Below, in pieces: positions 1 through 13,483 of a stretch of DNA of 14,051 nucleotides. A model generated the notes under the pieces. The model was not told the origin of the DNA, did no database searches, and was given only the letters and a program-made list of their open reading frames with translations. This DNA comes from Anaerobacillus sp. Lineage in GTDB: Bacteria > Bacillota > Bacilli > Bacillales_H > Anaerobacillaceae. The DNA lies in contig SKOL01000197.1 of assembly GCA_007120055.1 (NCBI GenBank), positions 1-14,051 on the forward strand, given 5' to 3'. The translations under genes and the position numbers were made by a program. Positions within the stretch are counted from its first letter, which is position 1, and the number at the start of each line of letters is the position of its first letter.

Positions 1-62
1 ATGAGCGTTTTCCTCCCTATTGGATGTCTAGAAGTTACTCCTATCTACGTTTCCTTAACTTG

Positions 63-245: not shown

Positions 246-280
246 AACGCTCACAATGTCACCATTCATATAAAGCAGAA

Positions 281-304
281 ACTTGCGGTAACCTCACCGC
301 AGGT
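281..304 (-). terminator. Possible weak terminator hairpin downstream of the FAH-family gene
   Basis: ACTTGCGGT (281-289) pairs with ACCGCAGGT (296-304), giving a 9-bp stem with one G-T pair and a 6-nt loop. Read on the minus strand the stem is followed by a moderately T-rich stretch (TTTCTGCTTT). It lies about 155 nt past the stop of the FAH-family gene and is the best terminator candidate there, although the U-tract is poor. Nothing else was recognised in 246-458. Confidence 0.3.
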
Positions 305-458
305 CTAAAAAACTAGCTACATATTTTTTCAAGTAAATCCTGTCCATAAACCTCCTAGAAAATTTGCCCTTATACGTCATTTTTATAGCTTGAATGCTAC
401 ATAAATATCCTCGTTAACGCCCTTAACATGGAGTCGTATATAGCTGTCATCAAATCTA

Positions 459-1088
459 TTATTTTAATAAAACTTTACACTCTCCAAGAACTTCTTCGCC
501 CCATAATAATACAAAGTGATCGTCACTACAAACTGGGCCAACCCCTTCAGGAGTCCCGGTAAAAATAATATCCCCTTCCCCTAGTCCGAAGTTCTCACCA
601 CTAAAATCAATAATCGTTTGTAAATCAAACAATATGTTTTTTATGTTCCCTATTTGTACATGTTCACCATTCTTCTTCAAAGAGAAATTTCTTTTTTTGC
701 AAGCCTCTTCACCAGGGAAATCAATAAACTTACTTAATACGGCTGAATTCGGAAAGCCTTTCGCTAAAAGCCATGGATGCCCTTTTTTCTTCAATTCACT
801 TTGGACATCCCGCAAAGTGAAATCGATCCCGACTGCCATCGACTCTACGATTTCGTCAACTTTGATCCCTTTTTGATAATCTTTGCTGACTTTAATGACA
901 AATTCCACTTCATAATGAACCGCCCCACGATCACCAGGTAAAACAATCGTTTGTCCGTTCGCTTCGACGGCCGCATGGGTCGGCTTAGAAAATATAAATG
1001 GAGAAGTTGGAACCTCATTATTTAATTCTTTCGCATGCAAAACGTAGTTTCGACCAACACAATATATATTTTTAATAGTAGAATTCAT
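459..1088 (-). CDS. FAHD1-type fumarylacetoacetate hydrolase family protein (acylpyruvase / oxaloacetate decarboxylase-like)
   Basis: This 209-residue single-domain FAH-family protein belongs to the cytosolic, divalent-metal-dependent enzymes that hydrolyse C-C bonds of acylpyruvates or decarboxylate oxaloacetate. The FAHD1 pattern is complete. Metal ligands are E60 and E62 in VHYEVEF and D89 in GIDFTLRDVQ. The catalytic His-Glu pair is H18/E21 in GRNYVLHAKEL. The active-site lysine is K110 in PWLLAKGF. The C-terminal GDIIFTGTPEGVGPV is typical. Spacings match those I recall for human FAHD1, so acylpyruvate hydrolysis or oxaloacetate decarboxylation is a better guess than fumarylacetoacetate hydrolysis. 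ATG at 1088 follows an AAAGGGG ribosome binding site at 6-nt spacing. Two terminators separate it from the upstream catabolic run, so it has its own control. Its link to that pathway, for example trimming a 2-keto acid, is inference. Confidence 0.87.
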   Translation of the reverse strand: MNSTIKNIYCVGRNYVLHAKELNNEVPTSPFIFSKPTHAAVEANGQTIVLPGDRGAVHYEVEFVIKVSKDYQKGIKVDEIVESMAVGIDFTLRDVQSELKKKGHPWLLAKGFPNSAVLSKFIDFPGEEACKKRNFSLKKNGEHVQIGNIKNILFDLQTIIDFSGENFGLGEGDIIFTGTPEGVGPVCSDDHFVLLWGEEVLGECKVLLK

Positions 1089-1125
1089 ACTGTACCCCTT
1101 TCTCTAATCCGGTAGTTTGAGCAGT

Positions 1126-1153
1126 ATACTATCAGTCTAAAGTGATAATTTAA
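1126..1153 (-). promoter_or_regulatory. Candidate promoter with dyad between -35 and -10 for the FAH-family gene
   Basis: On the minus strand a weak TTAAAT (1148-1153) and TAGTAT (1126-1131) are spaced by 16 nt, about 40 nt upstream of the FAH-family start. An inverted repeat, TATCA (1130-1134) and TGATA (1143-1147), sits exactly between them and abuts a palindromic AGTATACT (1123-1130). This arrangement would suit a repressor site. Both promoter hexamers are poor matches, so the call is tentative. A small TCGC/GCGA hairpin around seven T residues lies upstream near 1161-1175. The rest of the 1089-1432 gap is filled by the two terminators described separately. Confidence 0.3.
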
Positions 1154-1241
1154 CTAATTCTCGCTTTTTTTGCGATTCCTGCTTCTAATCGAACCACAAC
1201 CAATACGGAAAGTACACCAAATTTTTTCACTGTCTCTCACT

Positions 1242-1277
1242 AAAATAGACCGAACGCTATGGACGTCCGGTCTGTTT
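1242..1277 (-). terminator. Rho-independent terminator (second of a tandem pair)
   Basis: Read on the minus strand, AGACCGGACG pairs with CGTTCGGTCT over a 7-nt loop (10 bp including one G-U pair). The stem is followed by ATTTTAG. The G-U pair becomes an A-C mismatch on the plus strand, so the structure is oriented to stop minus-strand transcription. It lies downstream of the terminator at 1317-1364 and backs it up. Confidence 0.6.
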
Positions 1278-1316
1278 CACTCACCTATTAGTCGAGTGGT
1301 AGCCCAAAAGTTTTTT

Positions 1317-1364
1317 AAAAAGAAGTAACTATCCTTACATTTTTGGGCGGGACGGTTACTTTTT
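1317..1364 (-). terminator. Rho-independent terminator of the CoA-transferase/lyase operon
   Basis: On the minus strand AAAAGTAACCGTCC pairs with GGATAGTTACTTCTTTT across a central loop. The stem pairs AGTAAC 1324-1329 with GTTACT 1355-1360, extended by A-T and G-U pairs outward and by TCC/GGA inward. A T-rich tail (TTCTTTTT) follows. It begins about 70 nt beyond the stop of the lyase gene and would end the long minus-strand transcript. An overlapping alternative pair, GCCCAAAA (1302-1309) with TTTTGGGC (1341-1348), is also present. Confidence 0.6.
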
Positions 1365-1432
1365 CCTAATCTAACAATGAATTAATCGTATAAAATTGTT
1401 CCATTAAATGTAAATCCCACAAGGTATATCCT

Positions 1433-2374
1433 CTATTTTCCGATTTTCTGTTGTTTTTGGGGGGCAATGTGCAAATCTGAGCACCTCCCAGCTTTAAGAA
1501 TAAAACTATCGGAATGGTTAGGAAATTGGTTTTGTAACTGTCTTCCAATTTCAATCACTTTATTTAAGTTGATACCAGTAGAAATACCCATCTCTTCAAA
1601 ACCATGTACTAAATCTTCAGTTGCGATATTTCCACTAGCATTTGGTGCATAAGGACAACCACCCAACCCTGAAACTGAACTATCGAAATCGATGATTCCA
1701 ACCTCCATTCCGGCAATTGCATTAGCAAAAGCCATCCCTCTAGTGTTATGGAGATGTAGCGAGAAATTAAACTTTGGGAATTTCTCTGTTAGCACTGTTA
1801 CAACATTTTTTATTTTTAATGGATTTGCCATTCCAGTAGTATCCGCAAGTGAAATATCAGTTATTCCCAACTGTTCATATCTTTCACAAATTTCAATGTG
1901 TCGCTCAATGGGTACATTACCTTCGTAAGGACAGCCAAATGCCACTGAAATAGAGCCACCTAGTTGAATAGATGTATTATCAGCCACTTTCACCAATGGT
2001 AGAAACCCATTCATTGCCTCTATAGTAGTAGAGTTAGCATTATTTAAACTGTGAGAATCTGTTGCAGAAAGCATTAACTTCACTTTATCGACATTCGCTT
2101 CAATAGCTCGTTCCAACCCTTTTAAATTAGGAACTAGAGCGCGTAACTTTACACCATCAGGACGGTTGATTTTTTTTAACACTTCACCCGCATCTTTTAA
2201 TTGGGGAATTGCTCTAGGGTGTACAAATGAGGTTACTTCCACCTGTTTAAAACCACATTCTATTAATAAGTTTACATAGTTTACTTTTTCTTCAGTTCGA
2301 ATAAATTCTGGTAAACTTTGAAAACCATCTCTAGGACATACTTCAGTAATAGTTACTTGTTTAGGATATGTCAT
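1433..2374 (-). CDS. HMG-CoA lyase family protein (candidate citramalyl-CoA lyase)
   Basis: This 313-residue TIM-barrel lyase of the HMG-CoA lyase (DRE-TIM metallolyase) family splits tertiary 3-hydroxyacyl-CoAs by retro-Claisen cleavage. Visible motifs are R15-D16 in EVCPRDGFQS, the metal-binding HxH pair H207/H209 in LHLHNTRG, and the family signature SVSGLGGCPYA with catalytic Cys240, followed by the metal ligand Asn249. In the glycine-rich loop the usual CPYAPGASGN reads CPYAPNASGN (Asn245). The family includes true HMG-CoA lyase and, in Chloroflexus, an (R)-citramalyl-CoA lyase. Context (CoA-transferase 24 nt upstream, LeuCD-like hydratase, dicarboxylate-type transporter) favours citramalyl-CoA -> acetyl-CoA + pyruvate here, but that is inference. 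HMG-CoA cleavage to acetoacetate and acetyl-CoA remains possible. ATG at 2374 has an AAAGGAA site 8 nt upstream. Confidence 0.88.
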   Translation of the reverse strand: MTYPKQVTITEVCPRDGFQSLPEFIRTEEKVNYVNLLIECGFKQVEVTSFVHPRAIPQLKDAGEVLKKINRPDGVKLRALVPNLKGLERAIEANVDKVKLMLSATDSHSLNNANSTTIEAMNGFLPLVKVADNTSIQLGGSISVAFGCPYEGNVPIERHIEICERYEQLGITDISLADTTGMANPLKIKNVVTVLTEKFPKFNFSLHLHNTRGMAFANAIAGMEVGIIDFDSSVSGLGGCPYAPNASGNIATEDLVHGFEEMGISTGINLNKVIEIGRQLQNQFPNHSDSFILKAGRCSDLHIAPQKQQKIGK

Positions 2375-2398
2375 AGTTTCAATTCCTTTCCTTTTTTC

Positions 2399-3616
2399 CT
2401 ATATCACTTTCTTTTCTTTTAACTCGTTAATTTGCTCTTCTCCTAGTTGTAATAAATCCTGTAAAATTTCTTCTGAATGTTCACCTAGATCAGGTGCCGA
2501 ATGTCGGATAGAGCCAGGAGTTTCTGAAAACTTTGGAACGACTCCTGGAATTTTTACTTTACCAAGCCTCGGATGCTCCACTTCAACTATGTTATTTCTC
2601 GCTTTAAATTGCTCATCTTCAAAGATATCTTTTATACTATTTATCGGACTTACTGGTACCCCGTATTCATCTAGTAAATTTTGCAACTCATCTCTAGTTT
2701 TTGTTTTTACCCAGTCTGCAACAATTCCGTTCGTCTCTTCAAACCTCTTAAGACGCTCTGAATTTGTATAGTACCTTTCATCCTCAAGCATATCTTCTCT
2801 TCCCATTGCTGAAGCAAGACGATCAAACGTTCTATCTGAACTTGTCACTAAAACTACCCAATGACCATCCTTCGTCTGGAATGTCCCTGCTGGGCTTGAA
2901 TGTCCACTTAAACCCGGTGTCCTTTCTTTTACTATGCCGTTTTGGTCATAGTCTGCTATTAAAAATTCCATCATACGAAACACTGATTCATATAGACCAA
3001 TATCAACAAACTGCCCGCTCCCACCATCCTCACAATCTCTGTGGTATAGTGCTGTAGATGTAGCAAAAGCTACGTAAATCCCAGTAATATAATCCACAAG
3101 CGAGAAAGACGGACTTATTGGTGGACGATCTTTATATCCATGTAAATACGTAAAGCCACTGAAAGCGGTTGCAGGTGTACCAAATCCAGCCTTACTTGAG
3201 TATGGACCGGTTTGACCATAGCCAGTTACACGTATCATAATTAAATCTGGATTTACCTTTTTAAGCTCTTCATAGCCAACGTTCCACTTCTCTAATGTCC
3301 CTGGTCGGAAATTTTCTATAACAACATCTGACTTTTTAACAAGCTGTTTTAAAATATTTTGTCCCTCTTCTGCGTGTAAATCCAACGTTAATGATTTCTT
3401 ATTACGTGCAAGTCCCGGCCAACGCAACGGTTCATCATTGTGAAAAGGTCCCATTTGTCTTAATGAATCACCTTTACCTGGTATTTCAACTTTTATTACA
3501 TCTGCACCAAAATCTCCTAATAATGTAGCACCATAAGGAGCTGCAATCATCGTCGACAAATCTAAAATTCTAATTCCATGTAAAGGACCATTTGTTAAAT
3601 CCCTGTTTTTTTTCAT
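2399..3616 (-). CDS. Class III CoA-transferase, CaiB/BaiF family
   Basis: This 405-residue full-length family III CoA-transferase moves CoA from a donor such as succinyl-CoA to a carboxylic acid via an aspartyl-CoA intermediate. N-terminal IRILDLSTMIAAPYGATLLGDFGADVIKVE, the RNKKSLTLDL stretch and ENFRPGTLEKW near residue 101 are hallmark segments. The catalytic Asp is most likely D175 in SLVDYITG. It is followed 24 nt later by the HMG-CoA-lyase-like gene, so its product is probably that enzyme's substrate. Class III enzymes that activate malate or citramalate in Chloroflexus (Smt/Sct) are the relevant precedents. The acceptor cannot be read from sequence. ATG at 3616 is preceded by GAGAGGAG at 8-nt spacing. 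The 181-nt gap upstream contains an inverted-repeat element but no terminator, so it is probably still part of the upstream transcript. Confidence 0.9.
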   Translation of the reverse strand: MKKNRDLTNGPLHGIRILDLSTMIAAPYGATLLGDFGADVIKVEIPGKGDSLRQMGPFHNDEPLRWPGLARNKKSLTLDLHAEEGQNILKQLVKKSDVVIENFRPGTLEKWNVGYEELKKVNPDLIMIRVTGYGQTGPYSSKAGFGTPATAFSGFTYLHGYKDRPPISPSFSLVDYITGIYVAFATSTALYHRDCEDGGSGQFVDIGLYESVFRMMEFLIADYDQNGIVKERTPGLSGHSSPAGTFQTKDGHWVVLVTSSDRTFDRLASAMGREDMLEDERYYTNSERLKRFEETNGIVADWVKTKTRDELQNLLDEYGVPVSPINSIKDIFEDEQFKARNNIVEVEHPRLGKVKIPGVVPKFSETPGSIRHSAPDLGEHSEEILQDLLQLGEEQINELKEKKVI

Positions 3617-3670
3617 TTCCTATTCTCCTCTCTTAGTTAATGAATTTGAATGGAAATATCTTCAAGATAC

Positions 3671-3774
3671 TGAGGTTGACTCAAAATGAAAGTGAGATCG
3701 CTTAAACTTCATCTGAAGTGAATTAAAGGTGAATCCTATCACAAAAACACTAGACATATTTGAGTCATCTCTCA
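3671..3774. repeat. MITE-like inverted-repeat element between TRAP permease and CoA-transferase
   Basis: TGACTCAAA (3677-3685) is matched by TTTGAGTCA (3759-3767). The homology extends outward as GAGGT/GAGA next to the repeat, giving imperfect ~14-bp terminal inverted repeats about 100 bp apart. A second hairpin, ACTTCA/TGAAGT around TC, lies at about 3706-3719. A third small one, TATCTT/AAGATA, lies just outside at about 3656-3668. There is no U-tract on either strand, so it is not a simple terminator, and no coding frame is seen. It could be a small non-autonomous insertion element or a processing/attenuation structure that splits the operon into transport and enzyme halves. Confidence 0.4.
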
Positions 3775-3797
3775 ATTAAATTTCATTTTATTTCTAA

Positions 3798-5735
3798 TTA
3801 CACTAATGCTTCTTTAGAAACTGTCGATGTTTTTTCTTGCCTTGATTTTCGAATTTGATTTAGTAATATGAGCGCAAAGATTGATAGTCCAATAGTATCT
3901 GTCAATACATCACTCTTAATCAATGTAAATGCAGCGACGCCCATTAAAAGCTGCTCTAAAATAGTAATCTTTGTTAGAAGATACCTTTCCATCACTGTCC
4001 CAATACAAATCACTCCTACAATTGCAGTAATAAGAGGAACTACAATTTGAGTAATTGTTGAATCCGGAGCCCAAAGTAAAGCCGGTGAATATATAAACAT
4101 ATACGGAATAATAAATCCGACAATCGCTAATTTCAACGCAGAAAAACCAGTTTTATTTGGATCACTTCCTGCAATACCTGCTGCAGCAAAAGCACCTAAC
4201 GCCACAGGAGGGGTAACGGTTGATAGAATTCCAAAATAAAATACAAACATATGAGCATAAATGGGTTCTATTCCAAGAGCAACAATAGCAGGTGCGGCAA
4301 TTGCACTAGTTAAAATATAATTTGCTGTCGTTGGCAACTCCATCCCGATGATGATTGCAATAACCATGGTTAGTAGTAACGTAGTGAATAAGATACCACC
4401 GCTCATTTGTAAAATGGCAGATCCCATGGCTAAAATAGACCCTGACAATGATGTAATACCAATGACAATACCAATGATTGCACATGCACTTGCTACAGGA
4501 ACTGCATTTAGAGCTCCTTTTTCCATCGCTTCTATTAATTTTCTAAGGTTAATCCTAGTGTGTTTTCTAAAGGAACTAAATACTACAGCTAAGACAATCC
4601 CCCATACTCCAGCATACATTGCGTTATGCCCCTGAATAAGTAGATAAACTAAGCCGATAATTGGAACTAATAAATGCCAACCATCTTTTAGCACCTTCCA
4701 TATATTAGGTAACTCGGATTTATCTAATCCTCTTAATCCCATCCTTGATGATCTAAGATGAAGAATAACTAATATTCCTGTGAAATAAAGAATTGCTGGA
4801 ATTAATGCATACCCTAAAATATGGACAAAAGGAATACCAAGTGCATCAGCCATTAAAAATGCTGCTGCCCCCATTATCGGTGGCATAATTTGACCACCAG
4901 CAGAAGAAGCAGCTTCTACTCCTCCAGCAAAATGTGGCTTAAAACCTATTTTTTTCATCAGTGGGATTGTAAAAGCACCTGTTGTTACTACATTCGCTGA
5001 TGTACTCCCGCTAATTGTTCCCATACAAGCACTTGAGATTACCGAAACCTTTGCCGGACCACCTTTCGTATGTCCAGCAATAGCCAAGGAAATATCATTA
5101 AATAACTTTGACATTCCAGTTACGGATAAAAATGCTCCGAAAAGAATAAATAGAAAAATATACGTGGCTGAAACTCCTAAAATTTGACCGTAAACACCTT
5201 CAGTTGTTAAATATAAATGTTGAACAATACGCTCAATAGAAAAACCACTATGCTTTAATGGTCCAGGAATCAAAGGACCTGTAAATATATAGGTGATAAA
5301 AATAATTGCAATAATTGGTAATGCTTTACCAATTGCTCTTCGCGCTGCTTCAATGACTATCAGAAGATTTATCAAACCTACATAAATATCTGTACTTGTA
5401 TGTAGGCCCCCCGACCGTACATATCCGGGGAACCTCCATACTAAATAAAGAGTGGAAAAACTAGCAATACCTATCAATATAAAATCAAATATGGTCATTT
5501 TATTCCTCGGTGATTTTTTTGTAGCTGGGAACAAAATGAAAACTAGGATTAAAATAAACGTTAAATGTATGCTCCTTTGTATTGTAGGTGAAAATGTACC
5601 AAACGCTGCAGTATAAAGTTGAAATGATGATAATGCAATTGTAATTATAGTTAATGCTACCTTCCATTTACCTTCAAATTTGCGCCTCTTACTTTCGATC
5701 ACCTTCTTAACTTTTGAGGATGAGTTATTTCCCAT
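3798..5735 (-). CDS. TRAP transporter fused permease subunit (4TM/12TM, TAXI type)
   Basis: This integral membrane protein of about 645 residues fuses the small DctQ-like and large DctM-like TRAP subunits, as is usual for TAXI-type systems. Many hydrophobic segments run from about residue 25 to the end. Conserved large-subunit stretches include SSACMGTISGSTSANVVTTG, GGQIMPPIMGAAAFLMADALG and TVTPPVALGAFAAAGIAG. With the lipoprotein encoded 22 nt upstream it would form an ion-gradient-driven, binding-protein-dependent importer of an organic acid. ATG at 5735 is chosen because GGAGGTT (5742-5748) sits 8 nt before it. The longer TTG form at 5750 would overlap its own ribosome binding site. TAXI systems are known or suspected to move dicarboxylates, 2-oxoglutarate and amino acids. 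The ligand here is unknown but should match the enzyme set. Confidence 0.92.
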   Translation of the reverse strand: MGNNSSSKVKKVIESKRRKFEGKWKVALTIITIALSSFQLYTAAFGTFSPTIQRSIHLTFILILVFILFPATKKSPRNKMTIFDFILIGIASFSTLYLVWRFPGYVRSGGLHTSTDIYVGLINLLIVIEAARRAIGKALPIIAIIFITYIFTGPLIPGPLKHSGFSIERIVQHLYLTTEGVYGQILGVSATYIFLFILFGAFLSVTGMSKLFNDISLAIAGHTKGGPAKVSVISSACMGTISGSTSANVVTTGAFTIPLMKKIGFKPHFAGGVEAASSAGGQIMPPIMGAAAFLMADALGIPFVHILGYALIPAILYFTGILVILHLRSSRMGLRGLDKSELPNIWKVLKDGWHLLVPIIGLVYLLIQGHNAMYAGVWGIVLAVVFSSFRKHTRINLRKLIEAMEKGALNAVPVASACAIIGIVIGITSLSGSILAMGSAILQMSGGILFTTLLLTMVIAIIIGMELPTTANYILTSAIAAPAIVALGIEPIYAHMFVFYFGILSTVTPPVALGAFAAAGIAGSDPNKTGFSALKLAIVGFIIPYMFIYSPALLWAPDSTITQIVVPLITAIVGVICIGTVMERYLLTKITILEQLLMGVAAFTLIKSDVLTDTIGLSIFALILLNQIRKSRQEKTSTVSKEALV

Positions 5736-5757
5736 TATGAGAACCTCCAATCAAATT

Positions 5758-6720
5758 TTATTTAACACCTATTTCCTTAAGGTATTTTTCTGCCCCCGGG
5801 TGTAAAGGTACCGACATTCCGAGAGTTGCTGTCTCTTCATTCATCTGATGGAAGTATTGGTGATGGCTAATTAACTCTTCCTTATGTTCAAATAACGTTT
5901 TTATAATATTATAAATATCATCTTCTGGCATATCTTCTCTTGTTACTAACAATGAAGATCCTGCTACTGTCAGAATATCTGCATCTTGACCTTCATACGA
6001 TCCTGCAGGGATGACAGAAGATCCGAAATCTGGAAACTCATCAATCATCGTGTCTATAGCTTCTTGTGTCATTGGAATTAATTTAATATCACCTGTTCTC
6101 ATAAGTTCTGAAACTTGAGAACTTCCTACCCCTGTTCCGTAAATATGCACATCTACTCTACCAGTTTGTAAAGCTTCCGTAGCTTCCTGTCTCGTACCAT
6201 GAAATGCACTATAATCATCTGGAGTGATTCCGTATTGAGATAGAAGCTGATTTGTATTAATTTCAATTCCACTTGCAACAGGTCCTACCGCTACTCTTTT
6301 TCCTTTAATATCTTCTACTTTTTCAATTCCAGAATCTTTTCTTACAAGTATGTGAAACTCATTAAAGTATATCGAAGTAATCCCTCTAATTGATTTAATA
6401 GGACGCCCTTCAAAACTATCTGTACCATTATAAGCTTCCCTAAGTGTACCGGATTGAATTAACGCTAATTCGATTTCCTTTGACTCTAAAAAGTTAGCAT
6501 TTTCAGCAGAACCACCAGTTGCTTGTGCACTACCATTATATCCATCTACGTTGTTAGTAATAATTTGGGAAATAGCACTTCCAAGTGGGAAAAAGTTTCC
6601 ACCCATACTCGCAGTTCCTATACGTAAAAACTTATCACCGTCACTGCTTTCTAAAGAACAACCTGCCATTAAAATAGATACAAAGATTACTAGAATTGAA
6701 AAAACAGACGTTTTTTTCAT
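5758..6720 (-). CDS. TAXI-family TRAP transporter solute-binding lipoprotein
   Basis: This 320-residue extracytoplasmic receptor has a short basic N-terminus, a hydrophobic segment and the lipobox LMAGC. Signal peptidase II would therefore cut before Cys21 and anchor the protein to the membrane. The mature protein starts with the TAXI-typical RIGTASMGGNFFPLGSAISQII and contains ANFLESKEIELALIQSG, GKRVAVGPVASGIEINTNQLL and the TGRVDVHIYGTG region, all characteristic of the TAXI fold. The C-terminal half (SVIPAGSYEGQDADILTVAGSSLLVTREDMPEDDIYNI) is also typical. It lies between the flavoprotein and the permease with gaps of 33 and 22 nt, so all three should be co-transcribed. ATG at 6720 has a G-rich AGGGGGG site about 11 nt upstream, slightly long. 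Specificity is not readable. Confidence 0.92.
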   Translation of the reverse strand: MKKTSVFSILVIFVSILMAGCSLESSDGDKFLRIGTASMGGNFFPLGSAISQIITNNVDGYNGSAQATGGSAENANFLESKEIELALIQSGTLREAYNGTDSFEGRPIKSIRGITSIYFNEFHILVRKDSGIEKVEDIKGKRVAVGPVASGIEINTNQLLSQYGITPDDYSAFHGTRQEATEALQTGRVDVHIYGTGVGSSQVSELMRTGDIKLIPMTQEAIDTMIDEFPDFGSSVIPAGSYEGQDADILTVAGSSLLVTREDMPEDDIYNIIKTLFEHKEELISHHQYFHQMNEETATLGMSVPLHPGAEKYLKEIGVK

Positions 6721-6753
6721 GAAATTTAATACCCCCCTAGATTAATTTAAAAT

Positions 6754-8409
6754 TTAAATTGGATAAAAGTTTATATTTAATCTTTCTCCTTCTTGATAGT
6801 ACTCATGATTACCAATATAATTCTCATCCTCATTTAGAAAATCTATTCTCCAATGTGACCCTCTACTTTCTTTTCTCTTTAAAGCCCCTTGTATGACTAG
6901 TTTTCCAACAGTAATCATATTAGTTAATTCTCTATAGGAAACTAAATCTTTACTATTTTCAATCAATATGTGATCAAGATTTTTTTCTAGTTCAAGAAGT
7001 TTAAATAAACCTTCATTTAATTTCTTTTCTTCTCGGATAACAGAAGCACAATCCCACATTATATCGCGAAGTAATTCTCTTTTTTCCGAAATACGATGAC
7101 TATTATTCTTATATTGAAATAGTTTTTGAATATTCTGAATTCCGATACCGCAAGTCGCTTCTATATTTTCTAATTTACATTCCTTAGAATATCGAGCAGC
7201 CTCCTCACCTGCAATAATGCCAAACACTACAGTATCCGCTATTGAACACCCTGAAAGCCTATTTGCTCCATGAATCCCTGTCGCTGCTTCTCCAGCAGCA
7301 TAAAGGCCAGAAATATTACTCTCACATTTTGAATTTATCTTTATCCCACCTAAAAAATAATGAGTTGTAGGTGACACGATTACCATATCTTTATATGGGT
7401 CAATTTTATTCTTTCTTAATTGTCTACAAAAATGTACATATTTTGTTTCCAGTACTTCTTTAGGAATTTGACTACAATCGAAATATACACCCCCTTTTAC
7501 ACCATTTCCATCTCTCACTTCTTGAAAAATTGCCTGAGCCATCTTATCCCTTGTTGCTACTCTATCACCACCCTCTACATAATTATGGACAAACAACTCC
7601 TTCCGTTTATTCCTTAATACTGCACCATCTCCGAATAAAGGATTTGAAGCAGGCATTTTAATAGGTTCAATCATCATTGTTGGATAGAATTGTACAAATT
7701 CCATATCTTTTAATATTGCACCAATTTCATATGCCAAAGCATACGAATCACCGGTAATTCCTACTGTATTATTATTTTGTGAGAACATATTACCAGCCCC
7801 ACCATTTGCTAATATAACCGCTTTACAAGCGATTTCAATCAGTTCGTTTTTTTTCGCATCGATTGCTATTGCGCCAACTACTTTATTGTTTTGTTTTACT
7901 AAATTGTAAACCATTGAATGCTCGAGAATTTTAATTTTCTTCTCCAGTACAGAAAGATGAAGCGGTTTCATAAACGACAGTCCTCTTGCCATATAGGAAT
8001 ACCCTTCCCACTCAGTAGGCACTGATCTAGGGTATGAATGCCCTGGTGGTTGTCTCTTTACATATTCATTGTCTTTTTTAAAAAATTTCATTCCATGGTT
8101 TTCTAACCATCCAATCGTTTGACTAGAGTTTGTAGCCAAAACTTTAGCTAATTCGGGGTGATTAATTCCTTTACCGGATTTAATTAAATCATCATAAAAA
8201 ACTTCCTCATTATCAGGGTTACTCTCTTCTTTCACTACTACAGAAAAGGCTGAACCTGATACAATTGTATTACCACTCTTTCCTACTTTTTGTTTGCAGA
8301 TAATAGTCACGTCAGCACCTAATTCATGAGCCTTTAATGCTGATATTACTCCTGCCGCCCCTCCTCCGATGACTAAAACATCTGTAAGTAACTGTGTTCT
8401 TTTAAGCAT
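6754..8409 (-). CDS. FAD-binding fumarate reductase / L-aspartate oxidase-type flavoprotein
   Basis: This 551-residue flavoprotein belongs to the SdhA/FrdA/L-aspartate oxidase/TcuA superfamily, which interconverts CH-CH and C=C next to carboxylates. The dinucleotide-binding motif is VIGGGAAG (13-20). The active-site region RQPPGHSYPRS, the catalytic-arginine helix VATRDKMAQAI, THYFLGGIKIN, and GLYAAGEAATGIHGANRLSG follow in family order, with a helical C-terminal domain. The histidine that covalently holds FAD in SdhA/FrdA is replaced in KSGNTIVSGSAF, so FAD should be non-covalent. No iron-sulphur or membrane-anchor subunit is encoded nearby. It is not NadB by context, because no nadA or nadC is present. 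First gene after iclR (38-nt gap), ATG with strong AGGAGGGG. It is inferred to desaturate a succinate-like substrate for the LeuCD-like hydratase. The electron acceptor is unknown. Confidence 0.85.
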   Translation of the reverse strand: MLKRTQLLTDVLVIGGGAAGVISALKAHELGADVTIICKQKVGKSGNTIVSGSAFSVVVKEESNPDNEEVFYDDLIKSGKGINHPELAKVLATNSSQTIGWLENHGMKFFKKDNEYVKRQPPGHSYPRSVPTEWEGYSYMARGLSFMKPLHLSVLEKKIKILEHSMVYNLVKQNNKVVGAIAIDAKKNELIEIACKAVILANGGAGNMFSQNNNTVGITGDSYALAYEIGAILKDMEFVQFYPTMMIEPIKMPASNPLFGDGAVLRNKRKELFVHNYVEGGDRVATRDKMAQAIFQEVRDGNGVKGGVYFDCSQIPKEVLETKYVHFCRQLRKNKIDPYKDMVIVSPTTHYFLGGIKINSKCESNISGLYAAGEAATGIHGANRLSGCSIADTVVFGIIAGEEAARYSKECKLENIEATCGIGIQNIQKLFQYKNNSHRISEKRELLRDIMWDCASVIREEKKLNEGLFKLLELEKNLDHILIENSKDLVSYRELTNMITVGKLVIQGALKRKESRGSHWRIDFLNEDENYIGNHEYYQEGERLNINFYPI

Positions 8410-8447
8410 AATCCCCTCCTAAATTAAATAACTATCTTCATTTAAAG

Positions 8448-9227
8448 TCATTTAGAACTTATTGATTTATTTACTTTATCTTTGTTATAACCTAATTCAC
8501 TCGAGATTTTTTCACTGGCTTTCAAAACTTCTTCTATGAAAAAATTAATCTTTTCTTGAGAAAACCTGACAGATGGACCCGAGATAGTTAAACCTCCAAC
8601 TACGTTTCCTGTATAATCCCTAACTGCTGCAGATATAGAAGAAGTGCCATCTAGCCTTTCATTATCACTTGTTGCGAACCCTTGATCTCTAATGTCAAAT
8701 AGTTCAATTTTCAATTTATTCAATTCATCTTCTGTCAACGTATCTTTATTTTCCTTTAATACACTAATAATTTTATCTTGTGGACAAAAAGCTAATAACA
8801 ATTTACCTGAAGCTCCCTTATGTAATGGGAGTAACTTTCCTACTTCAGATACTTTTCTCAATAATTGAGTACCGTCTATCTTCTCAATGCAAACCCGGTG
8901 ATTCCCTTGTATGATATTAATGTTTACAGTCTCCTTAACCGCCTCTGAAAGCCTTTTCATAACTGGGAATGCAATACTTCGAAGTTCTATTGAACTTTGA
9001 ACAACATTGCCTAATTCCAAAATTTTAATACCAAGTTTATATTGGTGAGTATTGGTTATTTTTTCTACCATACCTTTACTCTCTAAAGATGCAAGTAATC
9101 GAAATGCAGTTGATTTATTTAATCCTGTAATATTACTAATCTCTGCTACGGTTAATCTTGGTTTTTCAATAGAAAAACACGACAATATCTCAATTGCTCT
9201 TTCTACAGAACGGACAGTTTCACTCAT
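8448..9227 (-). CDS. IclR-family transcriptional regulator
   Basis: This regulator has about 259 residues. A winged helix-turn-helix lies at about residues 25-60 (LTVAEISNITGLNKSTAFRLLASLESKGMV), and a C-terminal IclR effector-binding domain runs from about 80 to 250, including GKLLPLHKGASGKLLLAF and the YTGNVVGGLTISGP segment. IclR proteins usually control adjacent carboxylate-catabolic genes in response to a pathway metabolite. It is divergent from the leuC-like gene and heads the minus-strand run (38 nt to the flavoprotein), so it is well placed to control both arms. Two ATGs are available. The one at 9233 is only 2 nt from the AAGGAG (9236-9241), whereas the one at 9227 is 8 nt away and is preferred. 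An inverted repeat flanking its promoter suggests autoregulation. Confidence 0.93.
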   Translation of the reverse strand: MSETVRSVERAIEILSCFSIEKPRLTVAEISNITGLNKSTAFRLLASLESKGMVEKITNTHQYKLGIKILELGNVVQSSIELRSIAFPVMKRLSEAVKETVNINIIQGNHRVCIEKIDGTQLLRKVSEVGKLLPLHKGASGKLLLAFCPQDKIISVLKENKDTLTEDELNKLKIELFDIRDQGFATSDNERLDGTSSISAAVRDYTGNVVGGLTISGPSVRFSQEKINFFIEEVLKASEKISSELGYNKDKVNKSISSK

Positions 9228-9246
9228 ATTCATAGCTCCTTGTATA

Positions 9247-9298
9247 AAAACAGTTTAATTTTAATATATAATAAAAAACACTAAAAATGAACTGTTTT
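9247..9298. promoter_or_regulatory. Inverted-repeat operator candidate with iclR promoter
   Basis: AAAACAGTT (9247-9255) and AACTGTTTT (9290-9298) form a perfect 9-bp inverted repeat. The similarity continues inward with A/T-rich TTTT and AAAA runs. Between and overlapping these arms, on the minus strand, are a weak -35 TTCATT (9286-9291) and a -10 TATATT (9263-9268) at exactly 17 nt spacing, directed towards iclR. The half-sites thus bracket the promoter, as expected for an autoregulatory IclR operator. Binding itself is inferred. Confidence 0.5.
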
Positions 9299-9318
9299 CT
9301 CAAAATAACCCAATTAGT

Positions 9319-9351
9319 TTCACCCAGTGATTTTTAATTTCGTCTGGTGAA
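9319..9351. promoter_or_regulatory. Second inverted repeat in the divergent control region
   Basis: TTCACCCAG (9319-9327) mirrors CTGGTGAA (9344-9351) with one extra C. The heptamer GTGAATT/AATTCAC at its right edge (9347-9353) recurs at 9412-9418 and 9532-9538 in the same intergenic region, the last one just downstream of the leuC-like promoter. These are candidate regulator sites, without direct proof. Confidence 0.3.
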
Positions 9352-9400
9352 TTGATTAAATCATAATAAATTTCAAAAGATTAGTCAACAATAAATTTTG

Positions 9401-9415
9401 ATTTATCTGAAAATT
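9401..9415. promoter_or_regulatory. CodY-box-like site
   Basis: ATTTATCTGAAAATT matches the CodY consensus AATTTTCWGAAAATT at 13 of 15 positions. It lies in the divergent intergenic region about 80 nt upstream of the -35 of the leuC-like promoter. Weaker 11/15 matches at 9368-9382 and 9476-9490 (the latter abutting the -35) may be chance in such AT-rich DNA. If real, the island would be repressed when branched-chain amino acids and GTP are plentiful. Confidence 0.4.
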
Positions 9416-9493
9416 CACTTAAAGTTGTTGTTGTATCAAGTTTTTTTATTTCTTAATACATGTTTGAATATACAAAAATTTCAAAATATTTTA

Positions 9494-9523
9494 TTGACAA
9501 AAAAAACAAAGGTACCGTAGAAT
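9494..9523 (+). promoter_or_regulatory. Sigma-A promoter of the leuCD-like operon
   Basis: A perfect TTGACA (9494-9499) and TAGAAT (9518-9523) are separated by 18 nt. Transcription would start near 9530, leaving a leader of about 98 nt before the TTG start. No convincing riboswitch or attenuator structure is visible in the leader. Confidence 0.7.
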
Positions 9524-9627
9524 GAAAGTGTAATTCACAATACGAAACAAATAATTTTAAATGAATAATAACTAAAATCCTTTTTGTACTTTCCATAATC
9601 AATTAATAATTAGGAGGTTGATGTCCA

Positions 9628-10875
9628 TTGGATCAAACAATAGTAGAAAAAATTGTATCATCACACACAGATAAACTAGTTTACCAAAATGAAATAGCTA
9701 TTGTAGATGTAGATGCTGTTATGGCGTCGGATACGACTGCACCATTATCTATTAAAGGATTTGAAGAAATGGGAGGAAAAAATGTTTGGGATCCGTCGAA
9801 GGTTGTTTTTGTTATCGACCATGCATCCCCTGCTCCAAATGAACGCATCGCTAACTTGCATAGTTTAATTCGTGAATTTGTAAGTGGGCAGGGAGCTACA
9901 TTATATGATGTTGGAGAAGGGATTTGTCATCAATTAATGATAGACAATCACCATGTTAAACCAGGTCAATTAGTAATTGGTGCTGATTCTCATACATGTA
10001 CCTATGGTGCATTAGGGGCTTTTGCAACAGGTGTAGGTTCTACCGATTTAGCAGCAATATTACTTACAGGAAAAACATGGTTAAAAGTACCACCAACAAT
10101 CAAAATTAATCTAAATGGAAAGCTTCAAGATGGTGTCACAGCAAAAGATTTAATTTTATTTTTAGTAGGCCAGCTAGGCATAGATGGTGCAACCTATAAA
10201 GCCATTGAATTTACCGGTGAAGCAATTACTGATTTAAGTTTAGATAGTCGTTTAACCATTTCTAACATGGCTATAGAAATGGGAGCCAAAGTTGGCTTTG
10301 TTGACACAACCGGGTTAGAACTACCATATGAATTCGAAAAGTTAGCTCCTGATGAAAACGCTCATTATGAAAAAGAATATACATTTAATGTCTCAAAACT
10401 AGAACCGCAGATAGCTGTTCCTCACTCTCCAGAAAATATCAAGACAATTTCTGAAGTTGAAGGTGCTGAAATTCACCAAGCATTTATTGGTAGTTGTACA
10501 AATGGAAGATTAGAAGACTTACACATAGCTGCCAATATACTAGAAGGGAAGAAGGTTCATCCGAATGTAAGACTTATGGTCGCTGCGGCCTCTAGAAGTA
10601 TATACCTTAGTGCTCTTAGAGATGGAACAGTTGAAAAGTTAACACTTGCAGGAGCTACTTTCCTACCCTCAGGATGTGGGCCTTGTGTTGGCACTCACTT
10701 AGGAGTACCAGGAAATAACGAAACAATTATTTCTTCAACCAACCGAAACTTCCGAGGGAGAATGGGTAACAAAAACTCAAATGTTTATTTAGCTTCCCCT
10801 AGTAGTGTAGCTACTTCTGCATTAACTGGCAAAATCACAAGTCCATCCAATGTAACAAGGGAGGTAAGACATTGA
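9628..10875 (+). CDS. Aconitase-superfamily hydratase large subunit (LeuC/homoaconitase-like, short type)
   Basis: This 415-residue large subunit is of the isopropylmalate isomerase/homoaconitase/dimethylmalate dehydratase group and carries the [4Fe-4S] cluster. Cluster ligands are Cys290 (FIGSCTNGR) and Cys350 and Cys353 (FLPSGCGPCVG). Conserved IDHASPAPNE, GADSHTCTYGALGAFATGVGSTD and NFRGRMG are present. It is about 50 residues shorter than the LeuC of bacterial leucine operons and resembles the archaeal-type, two-subunit class. With no leuA or leuB nearby and catabolic neighbours, leucine synthesis is unlikely. A citraconate/citramalate-type hydratase is inferred. The start is TTG at 9628, 10 nt after AGGAGG (9612-9617). 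The closer ATG at 9621 is out of frame. Its stop overlaps the next gene's start by 4 nt (TTGA), implying translational coupling. Confidence 0.9.
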   Translation: MDQTIVEKIVSSHTDKLVYQNEIAIVDVDAVMASDTTAPLSIKGFEEMGGKNVWDPSKVVFVIDHASPAPNERIANLHSLIREFVSGQGATLYDVGEGICHQLMIDNHHVKPGQLVIGADSHTCTYGALGAFATGVGSTDLAAILLTGKTWLKVPPTIKINLNGKLQDGVTAKDLILFLVGQLGIDGATYKAIEFTGEAITDLSLDSRLTISNMAIEMGAKVGFVDTTGLELPYEFEKLAPDENAHYEKEYTFNVSKLEPQIAVPHSPENIKTISEVEGAEIHQAFIGSCTNGRLEDLHIAANILEGKKVHPNVRLMVAAASRSIYLSALRDGTVEKLTLAGATFLPSGCGPCVGTHLGVPGNNETIISSTNRNFRGRMGNKNSNVYLASPSSVATSALTGKITSPSNVTREVRH

Positions 10876-11369
10876 ATATTACAGGAAAAGCTATAGTTTA
10901 TGGAAATAATATTGATACTGATCGAATTATCGCCGGGAAATACACAAAGACTCTTAATCTTCAACATTTAGCAGACCATGTTTTTGAGGATCTAGATCCC
11001 GATTTTCTTACTAAATTAAAAGATAGAAATATTGTTGTTGCAGGATCAAACTTTGGGTGTGGTTCATCCAGAGAACAGGCCCCCTTGGCTTTGAAAAAAG
11101 CTGGGGTATCAGTCGTAATCGCTCGGTCTTTTGCTAGAATATTTTATCGTAATGCAATAAATATCGGTTTACCGATCATAGAAATTCCTGATCACACCAT
11201 TTCCGATTTTGATGAGTTGGTCATTTACTTGGGAAAAGGGATTGTTAAAAACGTAAATACTAATTGTTCCTATAAAGGAAGTAAAATGCCTCAAGTAATG
11301 ATGGATATTATAAATGACGGCGGTTTGGTAAGCTATTTGAAAAAGAGAGGGACATATGTAACCTCTTAA
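10872..11369 (+). CDS. Aconitase-superfamily hydratase small subunit (LeuD-like)
   Basis: This 165-residue swivelling-domain partner of the upstream large subunit has the length of archaeal-type LeuD/homoaconitase small subunits, shorter than the roughly 200-residue LeuD of leucine operons. Key segments are YGNNIDTDRIIAGKY (10-24), the catalytic-serine region GSNFGCGSSREQAP (58-71) and SFARIFYRNAINIGLP. The substrate-recognition loop after Ile-Ala-Gly-Lys reads YTKT (24-27), where isopropylmalate isomerases of this class typically have YLRT. This hints at another substrate. TTG at 10872 has GGGAGG seven nt upstream and overlaps the leuC-like stop, so the two subunits should be made in equal amounts. 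Confidence 0.9.
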   Translation: MNITGKAIVYGNNIDTDRIIAGKYTKTLNLQHLADHVFEDLDPDFLTKLKDRNIVVAGSNFGCGSSREQAPLALKKAGVSVVIARSFARIFYRNAINIGLPIIEIPDHTISDFDELVIYLGKGIVKNVNTNCSYKGSKMPQVMMDIINDGGLVSYLKKRGTYVTS

Positions 11370-11396
11370 CTTATCCCACCAAAAGTGGTGTCTCAA

Positions 11397-12575
11397 ATGA
11401 AAATTTTTTATATTGTTAATATTGCTGGCCTATATATGTTAATGGTAATGGGTACTAGACCATTTGTTACATTATTTGCTAACGAATTAGGTGCTAGTGT
11501 CATTACCATTGGATTTATTACAAGTCTATTTTCACTATTCCCTCTATTTTTTGCTATATATCTTGGAAAAAGGGTTGACAAATTAAATTCTAAAACAACG
11601 TTATTAATTGGTGGATACTTAGGAGTTTTAGGGATTTTATTACCGGGAATTTTCCAAGGATTTATAGGACTTTGTATTTCTCAAATTATTACAGGCTCTG
11701 CACAGACAGTATTAATACTATCAGCACAAGATTATGTTGGACGAATTTCTACTAAGGAAAGCAGAAATAAATATGTGGGCTGGTTTAGTTTCGGTGTGGC
11801 CTTAGGTAGTTTACTAGGCCCCCTTCTTGGTGGAATAATCAGTGATAATTCAAGTTTTCAAACAACTTTTTTTAGTATGGCGGTTTTTGGTTTATTAAGT
11901 TGTATCATTATAACTATTATTCCTAATGAATTCCCTGAAACAATAAATGATTATAGTCCCCCCCATCCTAGCAAATCGGCCATATCAGATTTGTTAGGAA
12001 TTAAAGAATTAAGGGTAGCATTGATTTTTAGCCTTCTTGTACTATTCGCTAGAGATTTATACCAAACTTTCTTTCCTTTATTAGCTTTAGAGTTTGGCTA
12101 TAGCCATGCTACCATCGGAATCGTATTCTCTATCCATGGATTAGCAAGTGTTATTATAAGATTTTACTTATCAACCCTAATCAAATGGCTTGGTAGCCAT
12201 AAATTATTTTTAAGCTCAATGTTTATTTGCGGAATATTGTTTATTTTTCTACCTTTTATCTCGAATTTATTCTTAGCAATAATTATCGCATTTTTGCTTG
12301 GAATGAGCGTTGGTATTGGTCAACCGCTCACCATTTCTTTAACCATAGAATCAGCCATACAAGGACGAGTAGCTGAAGCTCTAGGAATTCGTCTAACTGT
12401 TAATAGACTCACCCAAATAATTACCCCAATTACTTTTGGTGCATTAGCAAACATCATTGGTCTGGTTTCTATTTTTCTAATAAGTTCAATTGCAATCCTT
12501 TTTGGATGCACAATTCTTAGTAGATCAGCCAATACTACAACAGAAGATGGTAAAGAAAATAATATTAGTCAATAA
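11397..12575 (+). CDS. MFS transporter (12-TM, drug/proton antiporter-like)
   Basis: This major facilitator protein of about 392 residues has roughly twelve hydrophobic segments in two halves, joined by a polar central loop near PPHPSKSAISD. The loop after TM2 carries a motif-A-like YLGKRVDKLNSKT. TM5 contains GSLLGPLLGGIISD, the motif-C pattern (GxxxGPxxGG) associated with proton antiporters. It is the last gene of the leuCD-like operon, 27 nt after the small subunit, and could export a pathway acid or by-product, or serve as alternative uptake. ATG at 11397 is preferred over GTG at 11385 because GTGGTG (11385-11390) resembles the GAGGTG ribosome binding site at 6-nt spacing. That site can pair with CCACC just upstream in a small hairpin (11376-11390). 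Confidence 0.83.
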   Translation: MKIFYIVNIAGLYMLMVMGTRPFVTLFANELGASVITIGFITSLFSLFPLFFAIYLGKRVDKLNSKTTLLIGGYLGVLGILLPGIFQGFIGLCISQIITGSAQTVLILSAQDYVGRISTKESRNKYVGWFSFGVALGSLLGPLLGGIISDNSSFQTTFFSMAVFGLLSCIIITIIPNEFPETINDYSPPHPSKSAISDLLGIKELRVALIFSLLVLFARDLYQTFFPLLALEFGYSHATIGIVFSIHGLASVIIRFYLSTLIKWLGSHKLFLSSMFICGILFIFLPFISNLFLAIIIAFLLGMSVGIGQPLTISLTIESAIQGRVAEALGIRLTVNRLTQIITPITFGALANIIGLVSIFLISSIAILFGCTILSRSANTTTEDGKENNISQ

Positions 12576-12826: not shown

Positions 12827-13483
12827 TTATTTATCACACCTTGCAAAAAACTCCTCATAAAAATTAATAATCGTTTCTATGCTTTTTTTTCCTGAAGGAT
12901 ACCAGAGAAGATTGTTTCTCATTTTCGATTTGCTTTTACCAATAAACTTTATTCCAACTTTTTGAGTGACATAGATTTCAAACCCTCTTGCAAAAATCTC
13001 TACTGACGATCTTACATACTTATCATACGAGGACCATATCTCCCGTTCGACCCATTGATCTTTCTTGTCGTTAAATACAAGCTCTGTATCCTTTTCGGAG
13101 TGTCTCTCATGCTGCTTCCGAAAAACTTTGACAACCTCGTGCCAACGATCATCTTTTGAAACTTTAGAATAAGGTTTTCGACCATCTTCTCCATTTTTAT
13201 AATCGATTAAATGACCAAATTCATGTATAAAGGCAGTTAATCCCTCTTGTTTATTTTTCGTCGTGATCACGATGGATGTATTCGAATTTCTATAATACGC
13301 ATATCTACTCGGTAGACAAACAAACTTAAGTAGACCAACTCTGTATTTATCACAATCTAAAACTGGCAATACTTCTAAAAGCTTCTTTAAATCAGCTTCT
13401 ATCGCCGTTAAGTCTCGCGCACCGATATCATCATTAACCTTGATTTCTTTACACAATTTCTGAATGGTCGGATATGTTTTCAA
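12827..13483 (-). CDS. Zincin-like putative metallopeptidase (HEFGH motif)
   Basis: This 218-residue protein of unknown name has a clear gluzincin-like signature. FIHEFGHLIDY at about residues 85-95 supplies two zinc-binding histidines and the catalytic glutamate. SSVEIFARGFEIYV at about 157-170 probably supplies the third ligand (Glu). The combination of HExxH with a downstream S-x-E-x-F-A-R-x-F-E helix resembles metallopeptidase domains found in phage and conjugative-element polyvalent proteins, but I cannot name the family. No signal peptide or membrane segment is seen, so it is probably cytosolic. The start is TTG at 13483 with AGGAGG eight nt upstream. A TATAAT (13546-13551) lies about 60 nt upstream as a likely -10, with a weak TTCTAT -35. 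It is a lone gene unrelated in context to the catabolic island. Target unknown. Confidence 0.75.
   Translation of the reverse strand: MKTYPTIQKLCKEIKVNDDIGARDLTAIEADLKKLLEVLPVLDCDKYRVGLLKFVCLPSRYAYYRNSNTSIVITTKNKQEGLTAFIHEFGHLIDYKNGEDGRKPYSKVSKDDRWHEVVKVFRKQHERHSEKDTELVFNDKKDQWVEREIWSSYDKYVRSSVEIFARGFEIYVTQKVGIKFIGKSKSKMRNNLLWYPSGKKSIETIINFYEEFFARCDK

Follow-up and report, generated by a model that had tools for sequence, protein, structure and literature searches.

A contig of Anaerobacillus sp. (SKOL01000197.1, assembly GCA_007120055.1), of which a stretch of 14,051 nucleotides was analysed and is called the window here, harbors a gene island at positions 1433 to 12575. With moderate confidence, we read this island as a free-acid catabolic route for a diacid with a C4 chain and an alkyl substituent at C-2, most simply methylsuccinate and citraconate. 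A transporter of the TAXI-TRAP family would import the diacid, a flavoprotein would oxidise the saturated acid to a cis-unsaturated diacid (citraconate in the case of a methyl branch), and a LeuCD-type hydro-lyase would add water to give a tertiary alcohol ((R)-citramalate). A class III coenzyme A (CoA)-transferase would then shift CoA from succinyl-CoA onto the tertiary alcohol, and an enzyme of the hydroxymethylglutaryl-CoA (HMG-CoA) lyase type would cut the resulting thioester, releasing acetyl-CoA together with a 2-oxo acid (pyruvate), with an IclR-family regulator presumably controlling both arms of the island. Each reaction, its direction and its substrate, as well as the IclR control and the electron acceptor of the flavoprotein, we infer from the gene set. 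A route from methylsuccinate through citraconate to (R)-citramalate is the simplest, unproven reading; the sequence tests applied here do not separate a methyl group from other 2-substituents.

The gene content and layout given in a preliminary description, which had proposed an island for branched C5-type dicarboxylates, were borne out. Nine full-length open reading frames occupy two divergent arms that leave a 394-base gap, and their families were confirmed by Pfam and NCBIfam, with which ten window proteins were scanned. The leftward arm runs from the regulator through the flavoprotein, the TAXI binding protein, the fused permease and the CoA-transferase to the lyase; the rightward arm comprises LeuC, LeuD and a protein of the major facilitator superfamily (MFS).

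1433 to 2374, minus strand: C-C lyase of the HMG-CoA lyase family (HMGL-like); PF00682 156.6 bits, NF004283 343.6 bits against a cut-off of 246
2399 to 3616, minus strand: class III CoA-transferase (CoA_transf_3); PF02515 406.2 bits
3798 to 5750, minus strand: fused TAXI-TRAP permease; TIGR02123 726.6 bits, cut-off 320.65
5758 to 6720, minus strand: TAXI solute-binding protein; TIGR02122 301.8 bits, cut-off 84.35
6754 to 8409, minus strand: flavoprotein of the FrdA/SdhA fold, a separate subfamily; FAD_binding_2 and Succ_DH_flav_C
8448 to 9233, minus strand: IclR-family regulator, first gene of the leftward arm; PF01614 and PF09339
9234 to 9627, no strand: divergent promoter region; promoter-like boxes at 9388-9360 (minus) and 9494-9523 (plus)
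9628 to 10875, plus strand: large subunit of a [4Fe-4S] hydro-lyase of the LeuC/homoaconitase family (hacA family); NF001614 558 bits and TIGR01343 538.2 bits, both above cut-off
10872 to 11369, plus strand: small subunit, LeuD/DmdB type, with the loop GKYTKTL; TIGR02087 190.8 bits, cut-off 108.95
11385 to 12575, plus strand: MFS protein of a drug/export-like type; PF07690 182.7 bits
1273 to 1247, minus strand: terminator-like hairpin (11 pairs, 6 G-C) just past the lyase gene, at the end of the leftward arm

The order of hydration, CoA transfer and cleavage, already part of the preliminary description, is well supported by the linkage of LeuCD to the transferase/lyase pair under four transporter types and by the exchange of that pair for another lyase in a clostridial cluster (L123, discussed below). 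Whole-genome searches found the LeuC clade in 6 of 193, 2 of 398 and 4 of 29 genomes, which amount to 11 different genomes, and in 10 of these the pair lies near LeuC on the same contig. LeuC and the lyase are separated by 1.8 to 14.1 kb in the eight genomes where the distance was measured, the other two linked cases being L017 and L026; in the eleventh genome, G606, the contig stops 2.2 kb beyond LeuC. The lyase scan described below also picked up eight of the 11 genomes, and the presence of the island was the reason for taking G001 and G004 as group centres. Three genomes were found by LeuC alone (G065, G452 and G606), two of which are linked while G606 is the contig end. The four transporter types are TctC/TctB/TctA (L007, L017, L018, L026 and L066), an NMT1/SsuA-type ABC importer (L014, L063 and L096), TAXI together with the flavoprotein (the window, L001 and L118), and a Liv-type ABC importer. 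In L063 and L096, LeuCD stands in one same-strand run with a pair whose lyase belongs to a different branch of the tree, indicating that the association of LeuCD with the pair probably arose at least twice. The LeuCD-transferase-lyase operon of L026, a TctCBA version, lies on plasmid pGIAK2 of Bacillaceae bacterium JMAK1, according to the record title. The two arms of the window are transcribed separately, and could in principle be unrelated operons, LeuCD/MFS and TAXI/lyase, brought together by chance. However, linkage was seen in 10 of 11 genomes, and LeuCD and pair share a single same-strand run in L063, L096 and the TctCBA loci; these data refute that explanation, and its probability is negligible.

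The gene set as such recurs in two other genomes of Bacilli as well. L001 (Bacillus sp. ZZV12-4809) has nine of nine genes in the window order at 60-82% identity. L118 (genome G657) has eight of nine at 59-79%, with an MFS protein of a different branch (39%) in the other arm. In L118, LeuD-LeuC diverge from a run of IclR, binding protein, flavoprotein, permease, MFS, CoA-transferase and lyase, the positions of binding protein and flavoprotein being exchanged relative to the window. A gene set kept despite reordering is good evidence for a joint function, and the co-occurrence in other genomes on which the preliminary description depended is present. Genes, families, catalytic residues and conserved partnership are direct observations. 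GTDB species genomes were also scanned with an alignment of 13 close lyases, and the best 80 of 379 loci were kept. A CoA-transferase (at least 45% identity over 300 residues, ending less than 400 bases from the lyase) immediately precedes the lyase in 72 of these 80; among the eight loci lacking an adjacent one, L066 has a transferase nearby, next to a frame-broken lyase.

LeuCD is proposed to be a citraconate-type hydratase. LeuC scores above the cut-offs of the TIGR01343, NF001614 and TIGR02086 subfamily models, and its cluster cysteines C290, C350 and C353 are conserved throughout an alignment of 25 rows, which includes ten second copies of the same gene (matches of 380 residues or fewer, as in L066, were left out). 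The leucine-enzyme and homoaconitase equivalogs were missed by both LeuC (TIGR02083, 464.6 against 610.65; NF040615, 481.3 against 550) and LeuD (TIGR02084, 193.5 against 245.85; NF040625, 195.8 against 230). The earlier designation as a LeuCD pair is thus correct for the type, but the proteins fall in the homoaconitase/DmdB-like subfamilies of NCBIfam and pass no leucine-enzyme equivalog cut-off. Aconitase-type hydratases act on 2-hydroxy acids, and 3-methylglutaconate, one of the compounds first suggested for growth tests, is therefore unlikely. According to PMC7308503, a loop of the small subunit determines the substrate in the LeuD family. The loop GKYTKTL is common to every LeuD displayed among the relatives and to clostridial L123, and its YTKT differs from YLVY in 3vba (isopropylmalate/citramalate isomerase), YLRT in 2pkp (homoaconitase) and YNLT in 1v7l. 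That a single loop sequence persists under four transporter types suggests that these LeuCDs share one substrate class.

The lyase, proposed to be an (R)-2-alkylmalyl-CoA ((R)-citramalyl-CoA) lyase, has all of the catalytic residues R15, D16, E46, H207, H209, C240 and N249, and belongs to the HMGL-like family. In a tree of 115 rows (matches shorter than 250 residues left out, which drops L066), it falls outside the group of Bacillus subtilis YngG and human HMG-CoA lyase, in a separate group of 83 rows (support 99/94). It is sister to L001 (100/88) within a ten-row group (100/97), eight members of which are LeuCD-linked (the window, L001, L002, L007, L017, L018, L026 and L119/G452); for the remaining two, L004 and L021, LeuCD is not in the fetched stretch. 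The LeuCD-linked lyases of L014, L005, L015 and L118 lie just outside the ten-row group and those of L063 and L096 far outside, and the human row and L026 are long branches of unsure position. Other HMGL-family genes occur in 10 of 10 genomes examined, four of these (L100, L103, L104 and L105) grouping with YngG; the L001 genome has two (L097 and L098), neither of which does. With the window lyase outside the YngG/human group and other HMGL genes elsewhere, the label of hydroxymethylglutaryl-CoA lyase gives the family, not the substrate.

The partner enzyme is proposed to be a succinyl-CoA:(R)-2-alkylmalate CoA-transferase. Its Asp175 aligns with the Asp of human SUGCT that is presumably the catalytic nucleophile, and is kept in 83 of 83 rows, some of which are the same gene twice. 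Glu at position 210 was considered as an altered nucleophile and dropped because the SUGCT alignment puts the catalytic Asp at 175. Among PDB entries, human succinate-hydroxymethylglutarate CoA-transferase is closest to the transferase, and the lyase scores above the cut-off of the HMG-CoA lyase subfamily with all catalytic residues present. Both features would suit use of 3-hydroxy-3-methylglutarate or 3-methylglutaconate, in which the transferase makes HMG-CoA and an ordinary HMG-CoA lyase yields acetoacetate and acetyl-CoA. However, the tree places the lyase outside the YngG/human group (the human row's own place being unsure), the genomes have other HMGL genes (though few group with YngG, and none in the L001 genome), and the aconitase-type hydratase would be left without a fitting substrate, making this function very unlikely. 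A parallel for the 2-alkylmalate route is the (R)-citramalate pair of, presumably, Chloroflexus aurantiacus, whose lyase we take to be of the HMGL family. There too, a transferase and then a lyase convert (R)-citramalate to acetyl-CoA and pyruvate, and the adjacency of the two genes, a trait of that pair, is found in the window and in the 72 loci above. The window pair differs in its association with LeuCD, a flavoprotein and a TAXI importer.

The AlphaFold model of the flavoprotein has a mean pLDDT of 91.2, and its best PDB match is Escherichia coli FrdA (TM-score 0.89); overall score and fold put succinate dehydrogenase/fumarate reductase first and L-aspartate oxidase behind. FrdA R287, H355 and R390, which serve catalysis and one carboxylate, are kept in the window, L001, L118 and the relatives P0121-P0159; the window's own R287, H350 and R384 are invariant in 40 aligned rows. 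The protein therefore resembles succinate dehydrogenase/fumarate reductase in fold, catalytic Arg and one carboxylate site.

Several observations weigh against a methylsuccinate route. The His that binds flavin adenine dinucleotide (FAD) covalently (FrdA H44, SdhA H45) is replaced by Asn in the window, L001, L118 and 39 of 39 proteins P0121-P0159. In the same proteins, the second-carboxylate site (FrdA H232/T244/E245) is changed to Tyr, Ser/Glu and Asn/Ser/Thr. The scanned window proteins include no FrdB/TcuB-like, iron-sulphur or membrane partner; no extra gene was called inside the L001 and L118 islands, and the two flanking genes scanned at each locus gave no partner. The preliminary assignment to a succinate-dehydrogenase type thus stands as far as FrdA/SdhA likeness goes, but, judged by these residues, the protein is not a typical succinate dehydrogenase, and FAD is probably bound non-covalently. 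Non-covalent FAD is a feature of L-aspartate oxidase and soluble reductases. With R287, H355 and R390 kept and the second site changed, one end of the substrate would be held as in fumarate reductase and the other would not. This altered hold could yield the cis product that LeuCD requires; methylsuccinate desaturation is nonetheless a step that we infer, and the altered pocket weakens the case for it. Flavoproteins of the imide-type clusters described below (L094 and L002) are of another subfamily with a different pocket (the L093 flavoprotein reading frame has only 400 residues). The residue that is Arg in homoaconitase and Val in isopropylmalate isomerase is Lys in LeuD of the window, which leaves a methyl branch unproven. 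The window pair is likened to the Chloroflexus enzymes by described activity and gene adjacency, not by sequence; a search for the named Chloroflexus enzyme by way of the Chloroflexi lyase L070 gave none among the 120 matches listed.

Rarity is a further point of this kind. LeuC of this clade (at least 55% identity) was within reach in only 9 of the 80 lyase loci and the flavoprotein (at least 50%) in 1 (L001). Each locus reaches at most 10 kb per side, which partly explains the absence of LeuCD, and in L005 and L015 LeuCD lies 14 kb off the lyase. The full set is very rare: the flavoprotein was found in 1 of 193 genomes of L001's family (that of L001 itself), 1 of 34 (G657) and 0 of 7, and a relative at 41% identity in 1 of 391 genomes of the class of Anaerosolibacter, only some first-look candidates per genome having been scored in the 193- and 391-genome searches. 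A plasmid search with the flavoprotein returned only 30-31% matches, in three records.

These features leave room for the same chemistry on a 2-substituent other than methyl. With hydrogen, the intermediates would be maleate, D-malate and (R)-malyl-CoA, ending in glyoxylate; ethyl or isopropyl groups could be handled as well; a carboxyalkyl group would make the substrates aconitate- or homoaconitate-like, ending in oxaloacetate or 2-oxoglutarate. Such a substituent is consistent with a LeuD loop that is neither YLVY nor YLRT, with the homoaconitase small-subunit model as the best NCBIfam match of LeuD (under its cut-off), with a flavoprotein pocket that is not succinate-like, and with the hydratase of a gentisate-type locus (L020) that passes the AcnA equivalog cut-off. 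In addition, EC 2.8.3.20 is recorded as accepting (R)-malate besides (R)-citramalate (PMC8307300). However, the tricarboxylic acid cycle would already handle citrate-type products. The Lys of LeuD is open to two readings, and need not imply a third carboxylate: a homoaconitase R26K variant reportedly gained isopropylmalate isomerase activity, which would favour an alkyl branch. A non-methyl substituent is unlikely on balance, yet a serious contender.

The clostridial cluster L123 (positions 1-11190 of an 11.2 kb contig) bears on how the flavoprotein relates to LeuCD. Identities to the window are 41% for the flavoprotein, 42% for the TAXI binding protein, 52% for the TAXI permease, 48% for LeuC and 55% for LeuD. 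The genes are ordered flavoprotein, TAXI binding protein, permease, 2-hydroxyacid dehydrogenase, HpaI-type aldolase, LeuC, LeuD, a second LeuCD and the start of a PrpB/isocitrate-lyase-family lyase, inside which the contig ends; no CoA-transferase or HMGL match was found on these 11.2 kb. PrpB-family members that cleave 2-alkylmalates exist. Retention of flavoprotein, TAXI and LeuCD with an exchanged lyase fits a common 2-alkylmalate-type intermediate, whose cleavage, on this one case, would depend on CoA in the window but not in L123. Alternatively, LeuCD, transferase and lyase may form a core that degrades citraconate or citramalate, while the flavoprotein acts otherwise on the TAXI substrate, for example by oxidising a 2-amino or other substituted succinate or by reducing an unsaturated acid. 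The core occurs without this flavoprotein in L014, L063/L096, L007, L017, L018 and L026, which agrees with a separate role, as do the altered pocket and the probably non-covalent FAD. IrdA, presumably a flavoprotein, offers a precedent for reduction. It catalyses the reverse type of reaction, from itaconate to methylsuccinate (PMC12290011). However, score and fold rank succinate dehydrogenase/fumarate reductase ahead of L-aspartate oxidase, and the flavoprotein stays with TAXI and LeuCD in L123 despite the different lyase, so that its product should feed LeuCD. A separate role thus appears improbable, and the free-acid oxidation of a 2-alkylsuccinate remains the preferred function.

L123 also resembles the 2,3-dimethylmalate branch of nicotinate fermentation, in which DmdAB, a LeuCD-like hydratase, is followed by dimethylmalate lyase, in that LeuCD is paired with a PrpB-family lyase. 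The window differs from that branch by CoA activation and an HMGL-type lyase. Likewise, the Ict-Ich-Ccl-Mcd-Msi cluster of pseudomonads ends in cleavage of citramalyl-CoA and has methylsuccinate as a growth substrate, and some of the relatives found here carry genes of the MmgE/PrpD family, to which Msi belongs. The pseudomonad itaconate/methylsuccinate route proceeds on CoA esters throughout, using an acyl-CoA dehydrogenase, itaconyl-CoA hydratase and (S)-citramalyl-CoA lyase (PMC12290011), whereas the window route would oxidise and hydrate the free acid. The families of the Ich hydratase, the CitE-type Ccl lyase and acyl-CoA dehydrogenase were absent among the ten scanned window proteins. 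The preliminary description knew of no pathway with this gene combination, and no account of the exact combination was found among the papers that the literature searches listed. As far as these searches show, the combination is new, but the transferase and lyase steps on (R)-citramalate (EC 2.8.3.20 and EC 4.1.3.46; listed in PMC8307300) and methylsuccinate use by the CoA-ester route (PMC12290011) are already published.

Related pairs are found beside genes for other putative sources of diacids. In the imide-type clusters (L093/L015, L094/L005 and L095/L119), LeuCD and the pair occur with the Liv-type ABC importer, and between LeuCD and the pair sit two MmgE/PrpD proteins, a flavocytochrome-c/TcuA-like flavoprotein, an isochorismatase-type amidase and an allantoinase/dihydropyrimidinase-type hydrolase; L002 has LeuCD but an incomplete form of this set. 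Judging from the amidase and hydrolase, a cyclic imide may be opened and ammonia released to yield a free diacid, making this a candidate cyclic-imide catabolic cluster. Ten gentisate-type loci (L006, L008-L010, L013, L016, L020 and L023-L025) have a CoA-transferase 72-78% and a lyase 64-69% identical to those of the window. A gentisate-dioxygenase-like cupin, a 3-hydroxybenzoate-6-hydroxylase-like enzyme and an FAA hydrolase precede the pair, and an AcnA-type hydratase follows it (in L020 an AcnA paralogue above the equivalog cut-off); L006 has TAXI-type importer genes between the ring-cleavage-type genes and the pair. Family scans covered, for the gentisate type, only L020 and L006 and, for the imide type, only L094, L002, L003, L093 and L095, the rest being placed by protein clustering. 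A second, distant HMGL gene is present in 9 of the 10 gentisate-type loci, flanked in L020 by a second CoA-transferase and an acyl-CoA dehydrogenase. Methylated gentisates are reportedly degraded via citraconate and D-citramalate (Hopper, Chapman and Dagley, 1971), and the gene set is the one expected if alkylgentisates were converted to alkylmaleate and pyruvate, making these loci a candidate alkylgentisate pathway. Alkylgentisate degradation resembles the proposed window route in that an alkylmaleate is hydrated to a 2-alkylmalate and then cleaved; it differs in that the window lacks ring-cleavage genes and the gentisate-type loci have the AcnA paralogue instead of this LeuCD. In a further set (L011, L019 and L022), perhaps a C6 branched-acid variant, the pair is accompanied by a GntR regulator and by RraA-like and DUF1932 proteins, with families scanned in L011. 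The L011 RraA-like protein is 4-carboxy-4-hydroxy-2-oxoadipate-aldolase-like, below cut-off, and L011 also has a TctA importer gene.

The Tct, ABC, TAXI, imide and gentisate feed lines can all end in alkylmaleate or alkylmalate. It is possible, though on the whole doubtful, that the window represents a non-CoA oxidative branch in the catabolism of branched diacids. In it, an undescribed FrdA-fold subfamily with non-covalent FAD and a QFYPT...S(N/S/T)PLFG pocket would oxidise 2-alkylsuccinates to the cis (maleate-type) rather than the fumarate-type product, tied to TAXI import and to the GKYTKT LeuCD as a hydratase of a new substrate class. Together with exchangeable lyases, this would form a hub for alkylmaleates from alkylsuccinates, ring cleavage and cyclic imides.

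The importer is of the TAXI type of TRAP systems, with a TAXI binding protein and a single fused permease, both above their model cut-offs. Glutamate, 2-oxoglutarate and ortho-phthalate are known TAXI substrates (PMC11574862), which makes diacid import plausible. The MFS protein resembles drug-export families and could either export a by-product or take up a second acid; its relatives in L001 and L014 share 60% identity, and the MFS protein in the main arm of L118 (39%) is nearer to that of L063 (49%). Promoter-like and terminator-like matches are not enriched in the window (34 against a shuffle mean of 56.2, and 4 against 8.6), so that only the LeuC-side box, whose core TTGAC...CCGTA(G/C)AATGAA (9494-9523) is kept in L001, L118 and L014, carries weight. 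A 14-position palindrome consensus from aligned intergenic regions was considered as an IclR operator and dropped, shuffles reaching it in 194 of 300 cases for the window, 165 of 300 for L001 and 300 of 300 for L118; it stands out only in L014 (3 of 300). An FAH-family gene at 459-1088 (minus strand) was rejected as an island member: the terminator-like hairpin intervenes, and the available stretches of L001, L118 (which extends only 1 kb beyond its lyase) and L014 contain no relative. Its product is of the PRK10691 kind, under that model's cut-off. A 218-residue protein at 12827-13483 (minus strand) has an HExxH-like stretch and a weak, sub-threshold match to Peptidase_M90. No tRNA genes were found in the window.

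Finally, the gut of healthy people is rich in itaconate and methylsuccinate, methylsuccinate is considered relevant in soils, and itaconate acts in immunity (PMC12290011). If the proposed function is correct, Bacilli, and perhaps Clostridia, would have a second, free-acid methylsuccinate route beside the CoA-ester route described in that source. It would also provide a function for a flavoprotein subfamily currently labelled succinate dehydrogenase or L-aspartate oxidase, and for a LeuCD clade that automatic models assign to isopropylmalate dehydratase or homoaconitase. Moreover, it would offer a way to separate catabolic transferase/lyase pairs from the enzymes of leucine breakdown that share the HMG-CoA lyase label.

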